Position numbers and translations under genes: made by a program
Shown: piece by piece, positions 28,985-36,582 of the stretch
Numbering within the stretch: position 1 is the stretch's first letter
Layout: every line of letters begins with the position of its first letter
From: Anaerolineales bacterium
GTDB lineage: Bacteria; Chloroflexota; Anaerolineae; Anaerolineales; Villigracilaceae
NCBI GenBank assembly: GCA_030680795.1
Contig: JAUXUL010000014.1
Span: forward strand, 1 to 53,287
Reading direction: 5' to 3'
Length of the DNA stretch: 53,287 bases
Notes under the pieces: model-generated
Database searches by the model: none
What the model saw: the letters and a program-made list of their open reading frames with translations, nothing else
Told to the model about the DNA's origin: nothing

Positions 28985-29014
28985 GCCTTTATTTTACCTT
29001 TGGAGGGGGGAGTG

Positions 29015-29090
29015 AACAAGTAGACACGTACACAAGTATAAAAAAGAGAGTCTCCATGGTTAGGCTCTCTTTTTTACGTGTCTACTTGTT
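29015..29090. terminator. Bidirectional terminator inside a longer palindrome
   Basis: The inner stem AAAAAGAGAG / CTCTCTTTTT (29041-29050, 29065-29074) is a typical terminator. It is enclosed by a perfect 16-bp inverted pair AACAAGTAGACACGTA (29015-29030) and its complement (29075-29090). Similar ACTTGT/TCTACTT units recur at 27770-27805. Confidence 0.7.
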
Positions 29091-29105
29091 TCCGTGTCTA
29101 CCTTC

Positions 29106-30680
29106 CTACTTCACCAATGTCCGTATCTGCTCGTGCATATAGAGCGGGAGATAGTAATGGCCGCCCGCGTTCTTGCCGCTGGAGCCGGAGCCTTTCCATC
29201 CACCGAATGGTTGGAAGCCAGGCCATGCGCCAGTGGTTGCGCCTTGCGGACGATTCGCATACGTCACACCTGCTTCGATCTTATCGAAGAACCATTCGGT
29301 TTCCTCTGCTGAGCCGTAGAAACCGGCCGTGAGGCCGTAATTCACGTCATTGGCGATCTTCATCGCGTCGTCAAGATTCTTTACTTTGCCAATCGTGGTG
29401 ATCGGCAGGAACATTTCTTCTTTCCACAAGTGATGGGTGAAAGGCAGGTCAGTGACGAAGGTGTTTTCGCAGTAATACCCTTTATCGAATAAGCCGCCAG
29501 TTTTCACATGGCCGCCGGTGAGGAACTTACCGCCACCCTGGTTGACCTCTTCGCAAAAGTTCTTGAAATCATTGTAGGATGATTTGTTGATGACGGGGCC
29601 ATTGTAAGTATTTTTCTCTGTCGGGTCACCGATGACAAGTTTTTCAGCAGTATCTTTCAGGCGGGCAACCAGTTCATCGTATACAGAATCCTCTACCAGC
29701 ACGCGTGAAGCGGCGGAGCATTTCTGTCCCTGTAAACCAAATGCCGAGCGGATGATCCCGATCGTGGCGCGTTCCAGATCGGCATTCTTGGAAACGATGA
29801 CAGGATTTTTGCCGCCGAGTTCCAAAATGATCGGGCGCACGTAATTACGTTTGCCGAAATCCTGGAACATTTTCATGCCCACATCGAAGGAGCCTGTGAA
29901 GGTTACGCCGTCCACTTCGGGGCTGTCTACAAGCGCCTGACCCAATGTAGAGCCGGGTCCAGTGACGAAGTTCACCACGCCATCGGGGATACCCGCATCG
30001 CGGAAGCAATCCACAAGCAGGCGCACGATCCAGGCGGTATCGGTGGCGGGCTTGATCACAAGCGTGTTACCAGCAACAAGCGCCGCGCCGGAAGGTCCGC
30101 CGGTCAAAGCGAATGGGAAATTGAACGGGGAAACAACCAGCCATACGCCATATGGGCGGAGCACAGATACATTGCGAGCCTCATAGCCCACGAGCGGATC
30201 TTTGCCCATCTCGACAATATAGCCGTTGTTCTTTTCCATTTGGTAGCATGAGTAATAAATCAGATCGGCAGTCTCCTGCACGTCGCCCAAAGACTCCATG
30301 CGGTTCTTGCCGACCTCCAACGCCATAGCCGCACCTAATTCAAAAATACGTTCTTCGATTAACGAAGCGGCTTTGCGTAGCAATTCCACGCGCTTCTGCC
30401 AGGGAGTGTGACTCCAACCTGGAAAAGCCGCGCGCGCCGCAGCCAATGCTTCCTGCGCATGTTTGGCATTGCCTTTTTGCATCTTCGCGAGCACCCAATC
30501 TGTGTTGACGGGGGAGTGATCATCGAACTTCACGTCGGCTTTCACTTCCTGGCCGTTGATCAACATGCCATATTCCTGTCCCATATTTTTTTTGATTTTT
30601 TCCACAGCCTGATCGAAGCCAGTGTGTAACTCTTCGGGCGAGTTGAACATGGTCGCGTACGTGAGTTTAAAGTCTGCCAT
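29106..30680 (-). CDS. 1-pyrroline-5-carboxylate dehydrogenase
   Basis: A 524-residue NAD-dependent aldehyde dehydrogenase of the P5C dehydrogenase (PruA/RocA) type, which oxidises glutamate semialdehyde to glutamate in proline and arginine breakdown. Catalytic Cys321 is in QGQKCSAAS and the general base Glu287 in LELGGKNP. FTGSFDVG and SPFNFPFALTGG also fit. The proline dehydrogenase gene is not in the window. It has 302 bp of empty upstream sequence shared with a divergent lipoprotein gene, and ends at a strong terminator. Confidence 0.9.
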   Translation of the reverse strand: MADFKLTYATMFNSPEELHTGFDQAVEKIKKNMGQEYGMLINGQEVKADVKFDDHSPVNTDWVLAKMQKGNAKHAQEALAAARAAFPGWSHTPWQKRVELLRKAASLIEERIFELGAAMALEVGKNRMESLGDVQETADLIYYSCYQMEKNNGYIVEMGKDPLVGYEARNVSVLRPYGVWLVVSPFNFPFALTGGPSGAALVAGNTLVIKPATDTAWIVRLLVDCFRDAGIPDGVVNFVTGPGSTLGQALVDSPEVDGVTFTGSFDVGMKMFQDFGKRNYVRPIILELGGKNPVIVSKNADLERATIGIIRSAFGLQGQKCSAASRVLVEDSVYDELVARLKDTAEKLVIGDPTEKNTYNGPVINKSSYNDFKNFCEEVNQGGGKFLTGGHVKTGGLFDKGYYCENTFVTDLPFTHHLWKEEMFLPITTIGKVKNLDDAMKIANDVNYGLTAGFYGSAEETEWFFDKIEAGVTYANRPQGATTGAWPGFQPFGGWKGSGSSGKNAGGHYYLPLYMHEQIRTLVK

Positions 30681-30983
30681 TGGGCGTCTCCTTATTTTGT
30701 TACATAGTTGCGTAGTTTTGTCTTTACGTAACCAACTAAACTACCTGACTAAACCCAGTATAGCGTAGGATTTCACAACCGTCAAAGTAATGCGGCTGTT
30801 ATTCAATATGACGTATTTCCTGCTTACAGAGTGCCGCATAAATAGCTAAACCAGAATCATCATTATTAATCGTGATTTATCCAAAATTTAGTAATTTATG
30901 AACAAGCGGTAAGAGTCTGATGAGCTGGCGTAAGAAGATGCTGAAAAAGACTATCATATAAAGGTATGAATAGGAGAAATATC
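30681..30983. other. Divergent intergenic region
   Basis: 302 bp between two divergent genes. No gene or known RNA is seen. It has an A/T-rich centre, several short GTAGTT/AACTAC-like units at 30700-30750 and a TATAAA-like box near 30955. The promoters of both genes must lie here, but I cannot place them reliably. Confidence 0.5.
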
Positions 30984-31541
30984 ATGAAATCCCGCTTCTT
31001 TTTCTGGATACTTCGACGCGCTCAGTACACCGCCGTAAGCCTGATTGCCCTTTTAGTGGCATCTTCCTGCGCCCCGGCCGCTACCAACGCCTCCGCCTCG
31101 CCGACAGTGGAATCTGTCCCTGCCACCGCCGCGCAAGTTGACTCTTCCTCCGCAGGCCTAGCTACTCTTGTCCCTCCTCAAATTGTGGAGGTTCAAGCCA
31201 TCGCCACCTCACGTGGACCCAACCTCGAAGCCACAGACCCGGCCACGGTTACGCTGGCTTCAGGTCAATTTCAACTGGTGGAATTCTTCCGCTTTACCTG
31301 AAGTACCTGCCGCGCAATGGCGCCCATGGTTCATGGGCTTGAAGCGGAATATTCTGGCAAAATCAAGTTTACCTATCTTGATGCAGACGATCCCAGCACC
31401 GATGTTTTCCAGCGTGAATTGGGTTTCTACTACCAGCCCGAGTTTTATCTGCTGGATGCAAATGGGAAAGTCTTGAAAAAACTTGTTGGTATCGTCTCGG
31501 AAGATGAATTTAGAAGTTTGTTCGATGCGAACCTGCGATAA
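30984..31541 (+). CDS. Thioredoxin-like lipoprotein, candidate selenoprotein (UxxC)
   Basis: Begins with a signal peptide and lipobox (ALLVASSC). A Ser/Ala/Pro linker follows, then a thioredoxin fold: GQFQLVEFFRFT, STCRAMAPMVHGLEAEYSG, FTYLDADDPSTDVFQ, PEFYLLDANGKVLKKLVG. At 31299-31301 an in-frame TGA stands exactly where the first Cys of CxxC belongs (T-UGA-S-T-C). The frame is intact for 80 codons after it. GCCCATG (31322-31328), loop GTT and CATGGGC (31332-31338) make a perfect 7-bp hairpin with its loop 27 bases past the UGA, the distance of bacterial SECIS elements. The start is ATG 30984 with AGGAG upstream. An alternative is a nonsense mutation. No sel genes are in the window. Confidence 0.65.
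31302..31345 (+). promoter_or_regulatory. Candidate bacterial SECIS hairpin
   Basis: Perfect 7-bp stem GCCCATG / CATGGGC with a GTT apical loop, starting 20 bases after the in-frame UGA. A G opens the loop, as in many bacterial SECIS elements, which recruit SelB to the ribosome. It lies inside the coding sequence. Confidence 0.5.
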
Positions 31542-31580
31542 CAGGAACAACAGCCTGAAAAAGAAAAGACGGCATTAAAT

Positions 31581-31616
31581 AAAACCAGCGCGGCGATTTT
31601 CACCGCGCTGGTTTTG
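31581..31616. terminator. Bidirectional terminator
   Basis: A perfect 13-bp stem AAAACCAGCGCGG and its complement with a 9-base loop, between convergent genes. Confidence 0.8.
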
Positions 31617-31633
31617 TATCTAAAAATATTATT

Positions 31634-32998
31634 TTACTGGTTTCCGTCGTACTTCTTGGCGTCTGCGATGGCTTTGTTCACATTCACAAAGGGTAGCAGG
31701 ATCAAGCCCATGATGAAAAAGAAGATCAACGAAAGGATGGCATAGCGCAGATTTCCGAACCATTGATTCGCGAGTCCGAATATCAGCGGACCGATCCACG
31801 ACGTGCCGCGTTCGCTGATCTCGTAAAACGAGAAGAATTCCGCTTCCTTGCCCTTGGGAATCATCTGCGCGAACAGACTGCGGCTGATGGCTTGCGAACC
31901 GCCCAGCACGAGTGCAATGAAAATACCGAGGACGAAGAATTGCGCAGTTGCGGTTGGGCCTTTTAATCCGCCATACGCGTAGATCACCACCGCTGACCAG
32001 ATCACCAAACTGACAACCACTGATTGTTTCGCGCCGATCCAGCCTGCAAGTTTGCCCCAGAACAAGGCTCCGAAGAAAGCCACGAATTGGATCATCAAAA
32101 TAACGGCGATTAAGGTTTGTTGTTCAAGTTCCAGCCCGCCCTGAATCAGAGGCGCGGCGGCAAATGTAGAAGCCACAGCGATAACAGTCTGAATTCCGTC
32201 GTTATACAGGAAATAGGCGATCAGGAATCTAATGGTTTCGGGAAAATGCTTGACTTCACTGATCGTCTTACGAAGCTGTTTGAATCCAATACTTACATAG
32301 GTTTCCCCAACAGGGAGTTGACGAGCCGCATGACGTGGGCGCAGTCTTTTCCATGTCAGGAAGGAAAATCCAAGCCACCATATACCTGCGGATGCAAGGT
32401 TGATGCGAACCGCCAAGTCGCCGGGTACACCGAGAGCGTCGCTAAAAGTGAAGAAAGCCAGGTTGAGCGCCAGCAAAATGCCGCCGCCCATATAGCCCAT
32501 TGCCCAGCCGTACGAAGAAACACGGTCTCTTTCATCTTCACTTGCAATATCAGGCAGGTAGGCATTATAGAAAACGATCGCCGCGCCAAAAGCGAGATTG
32601 GCAACGATAAAAAGCAATCCACCCAGCCACCATAATCCACCAGTGACGAGGAACATCAGAATGGTCGCCAGCGCGCCGATGGTGGCAAATATTTGCATCA
32701 TGCGTTTTCGTAAATGCGAATAATCTGCGATCGCGCCAAGAATGGGTAGGAACAAAACCTGCATGCCCACGGAAAATGAAATACAGTAAGGAAGGAATGA
32801 ATCAGGCGCAACAGGAATTCCAAAAAATGAAACTGTTGCCGACCCCGCCGCTTCCGCCGCAGTGCGCGCCAGTGACGCCACGTACGGCCCAAGAAATACC
32901 GTGCCAACCGTTGTGCTAAATGCCGAGTTGGCCCAGTCGTACATGGCCCAGCCGAAAATCTCTTTCCTATCGTTTACCATTGGTTTCTCAGTTGCCAT
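31634..32998 (-). CDS. UMF1-family MFS transporter
   Basis: A 454-residue integral membrane protein with about twelve helices. WAMYDWANSAFSTTVGTVFLGPYV at the start is the signature of the UMF1/Atg22-like major facilitator group. ISRSLFAQMIPKGKEAEFFSFYE and GTSWIGPLIFG are its conserved second-half motifs. Bacterial members are uncharacterised exporters or nutrient transporters. It converges with the thioredoxin-like lipoprotein and shares its terminator. Confidence 0.87.
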   Translation of the reverse strand: MATEKPMVNDRKEIFGWAMYDWANSAFSTTVGTVFLGPYVASLARTAAEAAGSATVSFFGIPVAPDSFLPYCISFSVGMQVLFLPILGAIADYSHLRKRMMQIFATIGALATILMFLVTGGLWWLGGLLFIVANLAFGAAIVFYNAYLPDIASEDERDRVSSYGWAMGYMGGGILLALNLAFFTFSDALGVPGDLAVRINLASAGIWWLGFSFLTWKRLRPRHAARQLPVGETYVSIGFKQLRKTISEVKHFPETIRFLIAYFLYNDGIQTVIAVASTFAAAPLIQGGLELEQQTLIAVILMIQFVAFFGALFWGKLAGWIGAKQSVVVSLVIWSAVVIYAYGGLKGPTATAQFFVLGIFIALVLGGSQAISRSLFAQMIPKGKEAEFFSFYEISERGTSWIGPLIFGLANQWFGNLRYAILSLIFFFIMGLILLPFVNVNKAIADAKKYDGNQ

Positions 32999-33104
32999 AA
33001 CGCCTCCGTGAGATGAAACAGGATGAAAGCAAGAACACGCGCCAGTATAAGTAGTTTCGCCTTCAGTGTAAAGAAATATTTAACGTTAAAGCCTCACCTC
33101 TTCC

Positions 33105-34623: not shown

Positions 34624-36582
34624 TTACTTTAATTTTTTCACCACCGATAATAAAACCCCGTCTTTTCTAACTTCAAAGACAGTTTCGGCGTTCTGGAAAA
34701 GGAAGAGATGGTTATCAAATCTGGTGGTGATTACAGCGTAATCATAGACTTCTGGAATATCGTCCGATGAAAAATCCCAGACAATAAGATGCACAAGAAG
34801 ATCTTCGCGGGCATGGTCGGCAATATTGGAGCTTGCTCCCCACGCCAGGATGCTGGCGCTTGTGGGAGCATTTTCATTCAGGTAAACTGCGGCCTCACGA
34901 TAGGAGGTCAACCAATAATCGGTTTCAAAATTACCTGCTGCCCCTCGTAAGCCCCCAATAAAACGATTGTAATAAATATATTGATAAGGGTGTAATGATA
35001 TGATGCCGATCAATCCTGGAGCCAAAAACAAAATTGACAAGGCAATGTTGATCAGCCTGTGGTTTATCCGTTTAAGAATTGTTTCCAATGCCATCCCTGC
35101 CAGAATAAAAATGGGCGGCAGGATAAACAGGAATTGTCGAAAATTATCATAAACGCTTGAATGTAAAATAATTTGCAGCCCAACGGGCACAAGGAGCCAG
35201 GAATAAATCACGAGAAACTTCCCGCCCTCGCCGGGGGTTTTTATGGATTTCCATAATGAAATGATAAAGCCAATCAGACTCAGAATTATTACCGGCGCGG
35301 TTATTTGAATGGACACGAGGGTTGGAATATATGTCCATGGCAGATTTGAAGAAGCAAAGTTGTCTCCCATAAATCTGACCGCCCCGTTAAAAGGAAAACT
35401 CCGCATCACCTGAAATGACTCGATGAGATGATAAATCGGCTTATCCCAAAGAAAAGGCCATGTCAGGTAGGTTATTAATGCCGCTATCGAAAAATAATAG
35501 ATCAAGCTTGGTAAGGATTTTCTACCCGATGTGAGCAGGGAGTACCCCAGTATCAAAAGACCGGCAAAGGGGGCTAATAATCTGATGGATGTTGCCAATC
35601 CGAGCACAACACCTGCCATTAATATTTTGAAAATGAGTTGCAAGTCAATCTGGTAAAAAAATTTTGAGAAAAAATCCTTGTTGTTTTGTTTGTATCCGCT
35701 TATGATTTTATTGGCGGTTATTAAAATGAAAACTGCCACGATCAAAATTTGCTCGATTTTGCTGTTGACCGCTTTGTGTATATAACTTTCAACCGGAAGT
35801 TGATCGGCTCGGTTGGCAAGCATGGAAAACAGCCTGCTCCAGGTTGAATCGGGGGGCGAATTGTATACGAAGGAGACCGCCCATCCTATGGGGGCTGCGA
35901 TCACATCTTTTCCCACGATTGAAAAAACGAACAAACCAAATAGTATCGCTGCAACCAAATTGTATCGAACAGCCAGGTTTGATGCCTGAAGTTCTGTGCC
36001 GGCGCTGTCTATTGTTCGATTTTTTCCTGCAAAAGATTCCACCATGATGAAGCCGCATGCGATACTGGCAAGGAAAAAGGTCATGAAAGGAATGTCTTTT
36101 GGGTTTATGAAGGCATGTCCAAATAGCAAGGGCTGGGTGGAAAACAGCAGTACGATTCCAAATGCCGCCCAGCTATTCATAAATCTTTTGGCTACACTGT
36201 ATAAACTTATCAGCGCGGCTTGAAAGAAACTAAAATTAACAAAATGCCAAATATCCGCATATGACCAACTCTTGAAAACAAATGTCAGGGTGTCTGTCGT
36301 TAACTTTCCCACAACGGCATAAAATGGACCGTAGTATCTTAAATCTATAAAGTAGATGTGTTTTTTAGGAATTAAGTCGAGCCCGGAGAGGCCGCGGATA
36401 TAAGCATCAAGCGATCTTTCCCCGTAAATATAGTAGGAAGGCTCGTCCCACGCTGCGCCGAAATTATCCCCGATCAAAGCGGCAATCAAGAGGTTGAATA
36501 GAATTAGAGCGGCCAGGGCGTGCCAGGGTTTTATAAACGAAAGCCGTTTGTTGTTTATGGGTCTATTCAATATAATATCCAC
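34624..36582 (-). CDS. GT-C type membrane glycosyltransferase
   Basis: A 652-residue polytopic membrane protein with eleven or more hydrophobic helices. The first extracytoplasmic loop has an acidic pair in AAWDEPSYYIYGERSLD, the mark of GT-C lipid-phosphate-sugar transferases (ArnT/PMT/GT39-like). LWDKPIYHLIESFQVM and the C-terminal soluble part (NENAPTSASILAWGASS) also fit. It would add a sugar from a polyprenyl phosphate to a protein or glycan outside the membrane. The best start is GTG 36582, but GGAG is very close, so TTG 36570 is possible. The DNA is visibly AT-richer than flanking genes, suggesting acquisition. Confidence 0.75.
   Translation of the reverse strand: MDIILNRPINNKRLSFIKPWHALAALILFNLLIAALIGDNFGAAWDEPSYYIYGERSLDAYIRGLSGLDLIPKKHIYFIDLRYYGPFYAVVGKLTTDTLTFVFKSWSYADIWHFVNFSFFQAALISLYSVAKRFMNSWAAFGIVLLFSTQPLLFGHAFINPKDIPFMTFFLASIACGFIMVESFAGKNRTIDSAGTELQASNLAVRYNLVAAILFGLFVFSIVGKDVIAAPIGWAVSFVYNSPPDSTWSRLFSMLANRADQLPVESYIHKAVNSKIEQILIVAVFILITANKIISGYKQNNKDFFSKFFYQIDLQLIFKILMAGVVLGLATSIRLLAPFAGLLILGYSLLTSGRKSLPSLIYYFSIAALITYLTWPFLWDKPIYHLIESFQVMRSFPFNGAVRFMGDNFASSNLPWTYIPTLVSIQITAPVIILSLIGFIISLWKSIKTPGEGGKFLVIYSWLLVPVGLQIILHSSVYDNFRQFLFILPPIFILAGMALETILKRINHRLINIALSILFLAPGLIGIISLHPYQYIYYNRFIGGLRGAAGNFETDYWLTSYREAAVYLNENAPTSASILAWGASSNIADHAREDLLVHLIVWDFSSDDIPEVYDYAVITTRFDNHLFLFQNAETVFEVRKDGVLLSVVKKLK

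Follow-up and report, generated by a model that had tools for sequence, protein, structure and literature searches.

A probable selenothioredoxin, predicted to be exported and lipid-anchored, in Anaerolineales

We analyzed a 53,287-nucleotide stretch of DNA from an Anaerolineales bacterium of the Villigracilaceae (Chloroflexota; assembly GCA_030680795.1, contig JAUXUL010000014.1, positions 1 to 53,287 of the forward strand), hereafter the window, and found a gene that very probably encodes a membrane-anchored thioredoxin with selenocysteine (Sec) as its reactive residue. On the comparative criteria applied below, this is almost certainly a genuine selenoprotein gene, and an exported, lipid-anchored selenothioredoxin would be the best explanation of it. 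The open reading frame, 30984-31541 on the + strand, begins at an ATG at 30984 with an AGGAG located 7 nt upstream and ends at a TAA at 31539-31541: 105 codons, a TGA, 79 codons and the TAA, or 185 codons with the TGA read through. The TGA at 31299-31301 is the only one in frame and forms codon 106 in the context ...EFFRFT-U-STC.... An earlier reading made from the letters of the sequence alone (the sequence-only reading) had placed it exactly where a thioredoxin CxxC has its first Cys codon, and we find it there too. The same reading was right that the frame stays open past the TGA; its length of 80 further codons was not borne out, as the TAA follows after 79. The features of the locus are as follows.

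30984..31541, + strand: coding sequence of a predicted 185-residue thioredoxin-like selenoprotein with TGA codon 106 as Sec (PF00085 match; purifying selection past the TGA)
30984..31070, + strand: predicted lipoprotein signal peptide with lipobox ...LLVASS-C, the predicted lipidated Cys being codon 29 at 31068-31070 (motif present in 59 of the 63 distinct homologues with TGA)
31071..31262, + strand: Ala/Pro/Thr-rich, low-confidence linker from the anchor to the thioredoxin domain, end approximate (block pLDDT 54-75 to residue 80)
31263..31538, + strand: thioredoxin domain, residues 94-185 (PF00085 over residues 94-178, AlphaFold2, Foldseek and invariant columns over 33 sequences)
31299..31301, + strand: TGA codon, predicted Sec, the U of U-S-T-C (TGA in 77 of 88 loci; a Cys codon, TGC or TGT, in all 17 strong homologues without a stop)
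31308..31310, + strand: putative resolving Cys (TGC) of UxxC (Cys in 63 of 63 distinct TGA homologues)
31322..31338, + strand: candidate bacterial SECIS hairpin GCCCAUG-GUU-CAUGGGC, inside the coding sequence (core intact in 63 of 63 TGA sequences but disrupted in 16 of 17 Cys homologues; both sides changed in 4 of the 7 pairs)

Orthologues were surveyed in 61 genomes, the genome of the window itself and 60 relatives (37 in the genus and 24 at order level). A close orthologue with an in-frame TGA was present in 31 of the 37 genomes of the genus, its own included, with one TGA in each and two in G017, and 8 of the 24 order-level genomes had a strong match with one TGA. The six genus genomes in which no close orthologue was found (G002, G006, G012, G013, G020 and G024; 79-97% complete) held weak thioredoxin matches only. 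A scan of named genome contigs gave 46 loci, 38 of them close; these were labelled as Chloroflexi/Chloroflexota, Anaerolineae or Anaerolineales MAGs or carried names such as Villigracilaceae, Anaerolinea, Brevefilum and Herpetosiphon. When the codon was read in 88 loci, it was TGA in 77, Cys in 10 and obscured by a frame shift in 1. Eight of the ten Cys loci (L091-L098) were distant thioredoxins from other phyla or archaea, and the 77 TGA loci collapsed to 63 distinct downstream sequences. Comparison with homologues had been proposed as a check, and at this codon they had either TGA with an open frame beyond it or Cys; the outcome that was to speak against a selenoprotein, stops or frameshifts elsewhere in the gene in all close homologues, did not occur.

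The in-frame UGA has a conserved frame on both sides. Past the TGA, comparison with the window sequence gave a mean pN of 0.165 and a mean pS of 0.619 (pN/pS 0.27) over 41 homologues, namely those of the 62 other distinct homologues that have equal downstream length, whereas the two shifted frames gave pN/pS of 1.02 and 1.72 over the same 41. On these sequence comparisons purifying selection acts on the frame downstream of the TGA, which argues that it is translated. One locus, L110 in G050, was entered neither as TGA nor as Cys: it has a TGA and, by eye, an intact hairpin core in the neighboring frame, with an apparent frame break just after the motif. The selA gene of G050 is likewise split in two pieces, and this suggests that both breaks are assembly errors.

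The sequence-only reading had also described a perfect 7-bp hairpin with its loop 27 bases past the UGA and had proposed it as a bacterial SECIS. On the sequence the stem is exact: GCCCATG at 31322-31328 pairs with CATGGGC at 31332-31338 around a loop at 31329-31331, and the spacing from the TGA to the 3-nt loop is 27 nt, which becomes 26 nt when the closing G-C pair is assigned to the loop. The bacterial SECIS model given in PMC13188914 has a stem of 4-16 bp, a loop of 3-9 nt with a G in its first two positions, and a distance of 16-37 nt from the UGA. Compared by hand and with the energy criterion left aside, the hairpin fits this geometry, with a 7-bp stem, a loop of GUU (or the 5-nt GGUUC) and 26-27 nt of spacing. 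Its five-pair core was intact in all 63 distinct TGA sequences, and over 62 distinct rows 95.9% of the cells were paired, a share that fell to 48.6% or less once the partner strand was slid along. Both sides had changed at 4 of the 7 pairs, in 22 cells compared with a shuffle mean of 3.1, and the compensatory changes were C-G to U-A at two pairs, A-U to G-C and G-C to A-U. With its core kept, its pairs covarying and its geometry in keeping with the published model, the proposed role as a SECIS stood up well.

Support was uneven along the structure. RNAalifold, working from the alignment alone, returned the same stem minus the innermost pair, which fails in 16 of 62 rows, where the loop reads CGUGC and not GGUUC. 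The outer SECIS helix of the single-sequence fold was rejected, as just 72% of its cells were paired. Given these failures, full support is confined to the middle of the apical stem. Synonymous codons in or beside the hairpin were near-fixed (GCG for 59 of 61 Ala, GAA for 61 of 63 Glu, CCC for 46 of 52 Pro), and within it some amino-acid changes were matched by silent changes opposite, such as Met-Val with CAT-CAC. The folding energy was ordinary for the composition (z = -0.80, with 40 of 200 shuffled sequences folding equally well), and the case for this putative SECIS is one of conservation, not of stability. A whole-genome search with a SECIS model built partly from the window's own sequence scored the window site at 83.6 bits, followed by nine weak matches at 20.7 bits and below, the two best of which (L112 and L113) fell within normal reading frames that have no Sec TGA. 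Rfam models gave just three matches over 29000-33000, all far below their gathering scores, and a promoter and terminator scan showed nothing above chance. At a separate locus, L104:1128-2417 (G041:C719), we observed two tandem selenothioredoxin copies with TGA at the UxxC position in both; the second copy also has the CCCATCGTGCATGGG hairpin.

Decoding of UGA as Sec calls on the sel genes, and the sequence-only reading had staked its claim on their presence. All four were found in the genome (G000; 97% complete): selA (543.8 bits, cut-off 268), selB (349.5 bits, cut-off 242), selC (64.9 bits, cut-off 47; typed by ARAGORN as tRNA-SeC with anticodon TCA) and selD (361.6 bits, cut-off 125). The selD gene, L051:1501-2433 (G000:C5:9855-10787), has an in-frame TGA of its own in SACAG-U-ASK, which fits the UxxK motif given for SelD selenoproteins in PMC13188914; the 60 nt from this TGA fold into stem-loops at -17.2 kcal/mol (a value with no shuffle control). 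The genome also encodes RF2 (prfB), and the frames of selA, selB and prfB run without an internal TGA. In seven homologues (L010, L016, L026, L027, L058, L066 and L074) TGA terminates the selenothioredoxin gene itself after the standard tail of 79 codons, at the position that TAA or TAG occupies in most other homologues.

To follow the exchange of Sec and Cys, we used a search of 151 genomes of the order, which returned a strong TGA-type match in 45 and a strong no-stop match in 17. A match was called strong when the best match had an E value at or below about 2e-35, and weaker ones (G109, G103, G178, G171, G050 and others) were left out; for genomes covered only by this search the in-frame TGA was counted by program, with the exact codon read in G121 and G088. 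Each of the 17 strong no-stop homologues carried a Cys codon here, TGC or TGT; Cys in place of the UGA is found both at order level and in the distant L091-L098. The hairpin core was broken in 16 of the 17, in L130 at one pair only. In the remaining one, L133 of G150 (TGT), the five-pair core is still intact, and L133 is apparently a recent Sec-to-Cys change with a remnant SECIS of the kind described in PMC1794560. By hand count, selA was found in 43 of the 45 TGA-type genomes versus 8 of the 17 Cys-type genomes, at an E value of 1e-40 or better, a threshold too strict to pick up badly fragmented copies. All nine Cys-type genomes in which selA was not detected are members of one genus (g9). 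Because the genomes are related, the association of selA with the codon is a consistent pattern, not nine independent events. Among TGA-type genomes, selA was not found in G042 (91% complete) and G169 (79% complete), and a selA match was absent from the genus member G034 (95% complete, about 700 contigs); gaps in the draft assemblies might explain all three.

Two paralogues were seen in the same material, the second copy of L134 (G088) and L135 (G154), with Ala/Ser or Ser/Ser at the catalytic positions and a broken hairpin; they are thioredoxin-fold copies without redox residues. A broader picture, which we hold with slightly more doubt than belief, is that of an exported selenothioredoxin lipoprotein family across the order in which Sec is usual and perhaps ancestral, and in which Cys forms are secondary; in one genus the Sec machinery would have been lost alongside and the SECIS would have decayed. 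Such a family may have a dedicated extracytoplasmic reductive role that favors selenium, for example on substrates oxidised by peroxide or metals or as sulfenates.

The standard ORF call stops at 31301 (111 aa from an ATG at 30966), as would be expected of a pseudogene in which a nonsense mutation had turned this codon into a real stop and left the frame beyond it decaying. We rejected this explanation given the conserved TGA, kept in 63 distinct homologous sequences, and the purifying selection on the frame beyond it; Cys, moreover, is the only other residue at the position in the 17 strong no-stop orthologues, and the probability of a pseudogene is vanishingly small. Reassignment of TGA to an ordinary amino acid (Trp, Gly or Cys, not Sec) in a variant code has practically no chance of being correct either. 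In a first set of 13 window genes TGA was never the terminator, which is the pattern that a variant code would give; in a wider set, 15 of 96 mechanical ORFs of at least 150 aa ended in TGA, a weak count because the ORF finder assumes that TGA is a stop. RF2 is present, however, selA, selB and prfB have no internal TGA and relatives use TGA as a gene end, and reassignment was rejected on these grounds. The full Sec machinery likewise stands against it, as does the tie between the TGA and a hairpin whose pairs covary and whose core almost no Cys homologue keeps intact.

It is also very improbable that the UGA mostly terminates and that the 105-residue N-terminal product is the functional lipoprotein, or that a regulated mixture matters, with Sec read-through when selenium is available. 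Decoding of UGA as Sec generally competes with RF2, and what precedes the UGA would by itself make an exportable lipoprotein. Yet this part is mostly variable linker, the sequence becomes better conserved in the thioredoxin domain near and past the UGA, and the Cys homologues have the full-length frame without a stop. In reaching the Sec reading, we counted against it the z of -0.80, the failures of the outer helix and innermost pair, the TGA genomes without selA, the six genus genomes without an orthologue, the intact core of L133, the one-pair break of L130 and the eight Cys-type genomes with selA.

The domain that would carry the Sec residue is clearly of the thioredoxin type. PF00085 matched residues 94-178 with 37.8 bits (gathering score 23.5; E 2.1e-9), and the TrxA equivalog TIGR01068 was missed by a wide margin (34.9 bits, cut-off 96.8), so this is a thioredoxin-domain protein, not TrxA. 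Nine NCBIfam models matched the protein up to E 0.1; the best were plain thioredoxins, and no selenoprotein model was among the nine. AlphaFold2 gave block pLDDT values of 92-97 over residues 81-185 and 54-75 up to residue 80, and the top Foldseek matches were thioredoxins or thioredoxin fusions (best E 9.9e-8). Q151-P152, which we take to lie at the place of the cis-Pro loop, is invariant in 33 sequences. By a simple motif rule, 59 of the 63 distinct TGA homologues have a hydrophobic N-terminus followed by a lipobox-like Cys, in agreement with the exported lipoprotein that had been proposed from the window alone. Four did not conform: in L020, L082 and L103 a contig end truncates the sequence, and in L023 (G017, 78% complete) the upstream frame is disrupted. 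The lipobox of the window protein, A-S-S-C, departs from the canonical L-A-G-C. From these motifs we predict an extracytoplasmic, membrane-tethered selenothioredoxin. Three of four DsbD_TM/CcdA matches in the genome scored over the cut-off, and one homologue (C11:40259-40909) lies about 2 kb from another thioredoxin-like gene (C11:43135); these homologues are candidate electron donors.

Set beside the gene structure, sel genes, conserved and covarying positions and Cys/Sec exchange observed here, established knowledge of Sec insertion, export, lipidation and reductase chemistry would give the following route. Sec-tRNA(Sec) would be made on the selC RNA by SelA with selenophosphate from SelD, and SelB carrying it would bind the hairpin just downstream of the UGA, so that Sec is inserted at codon 106 in place of termination by RF2. 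The signal peptide would then export the protein and the lipobox Cys is predicted to be lipidated, which would leave the C-terminal thioredoxin domain outside the cytoplasmic membrane, tethered by some 50-65 residues of flexible linker. In that location U106 may attack a disulfide or other oxidised substrate and C109 may resolve the selenenylsulfide, with electrons probably returning through a membrane protein of the CcdA/DsbD type.

Near relatives share the gene order CoA-transferase, aldehyde dehydrogenase, selenothioredoxin gene, MFS transporter and ffh. All four neighbors were present in L054, L055, L057, L058, L060, L061, L068, L069 and L072, and many other loci were too short to include all of them. 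Since both genes flanking the selenothioredoxin gene are on the opposite strand, the shared order appears to be synteny that independent units have kept by descent and not the sign of an operon. A conserved operon partner was rejected, as the neighbors in 22 distant loci fell into small differing groups, the largest common to 5, and no redox partner was found among the Pfam-scanned neighbors in the window. A 652-aa ORF at 34624-36582 of the window (- strand) adjoins ffh and has no Pfam match at E 0.001.

Sec-containing formate dehydrogenases have been reported in Chloroflexi (PMC5736913), so the use of Sec in the phylum is not new. The main text of the review PMC13188914 contains none of 'chloroflex', 'lipoprotein', 'periplasm' or 'signal peptide', and the open-access literature on selenoproteins in Chloroflexi, Chloroflexota or Anaerolineae yielded, among the papers listed, none evidently on an exported selenothioredoxin; the exported version appears to be undescribed in the open-access literature that can be searched. 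Our data add a well-supported selenoprotein, predicted to be exported, in Anaerolineales, uncultured Chloroflexota on which the open-access literature that we found offers few selenoprotein studies other than those of formate dehydrogenases. Where TGA is read as a stop, the called product ends just short of the active site, and the gene is therefore probably misannotated across relatives. Moreover, Sec-to-Cys switches with hairpin breakage, together with one genus without detectable selA, make the family a compact natural experiment on selenium dependence.

Thioredoxins of the ResA/TlpA/CcmG type are membrane-anchored and use CxxC. The window protein would share with them an extracytoplasmic thioredoxin domain tethered to the membrane and plausibly reduced by CcdA; unlike them, it resembles classical thioredoxin most closely in both sequence and fold, with just a sub-cut-off match to DsbE. 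Other selenoproteins of the thioredoxin fold are listed in PMC13188914, namely a TlpA-like protein (UGC), a thiol:disulfide interchange protein (PF13098, UxxC), SaoT (NF040730) and a HUIPC-motif protein (NF047660). A thioredoxin fold (going by name or model), a Sec residue within the redox motif and probably thiol-disulfide chemistry are common to these and to the window protein, whose nine NCBIfam matches, in contrast, include no selenoprotein model.

The closest counterpart is Sec-thioredoxin (PF00085, UxxC), which a table in PMC13188914 places among the experimentally verified prokaryotic selenoproteins; thioredoxin selenoproteins also appear in PMC1794560 and PMC1088965. Both have the PF00085 domain, Sec for the first Cys of CxxC, a SECIS directly downstream and Cys homologues. 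The window protein has a predicted lipoprotein signal and a long Pro/Ala/Thr linker and is predicted to be extracytoplasmic, in which it may differ from the published proteins. It differs in belonging to a family found across Anaerolineales, with the common motif EFFxFxUxxC...MAPxVHGLE, and in scoring far below the TrxA equivalog cut-off. UxxC thioredoxin selenoproteins are already known in bacteria, and what is new here is a predicted exported member that is widespread in Anaerolineales.
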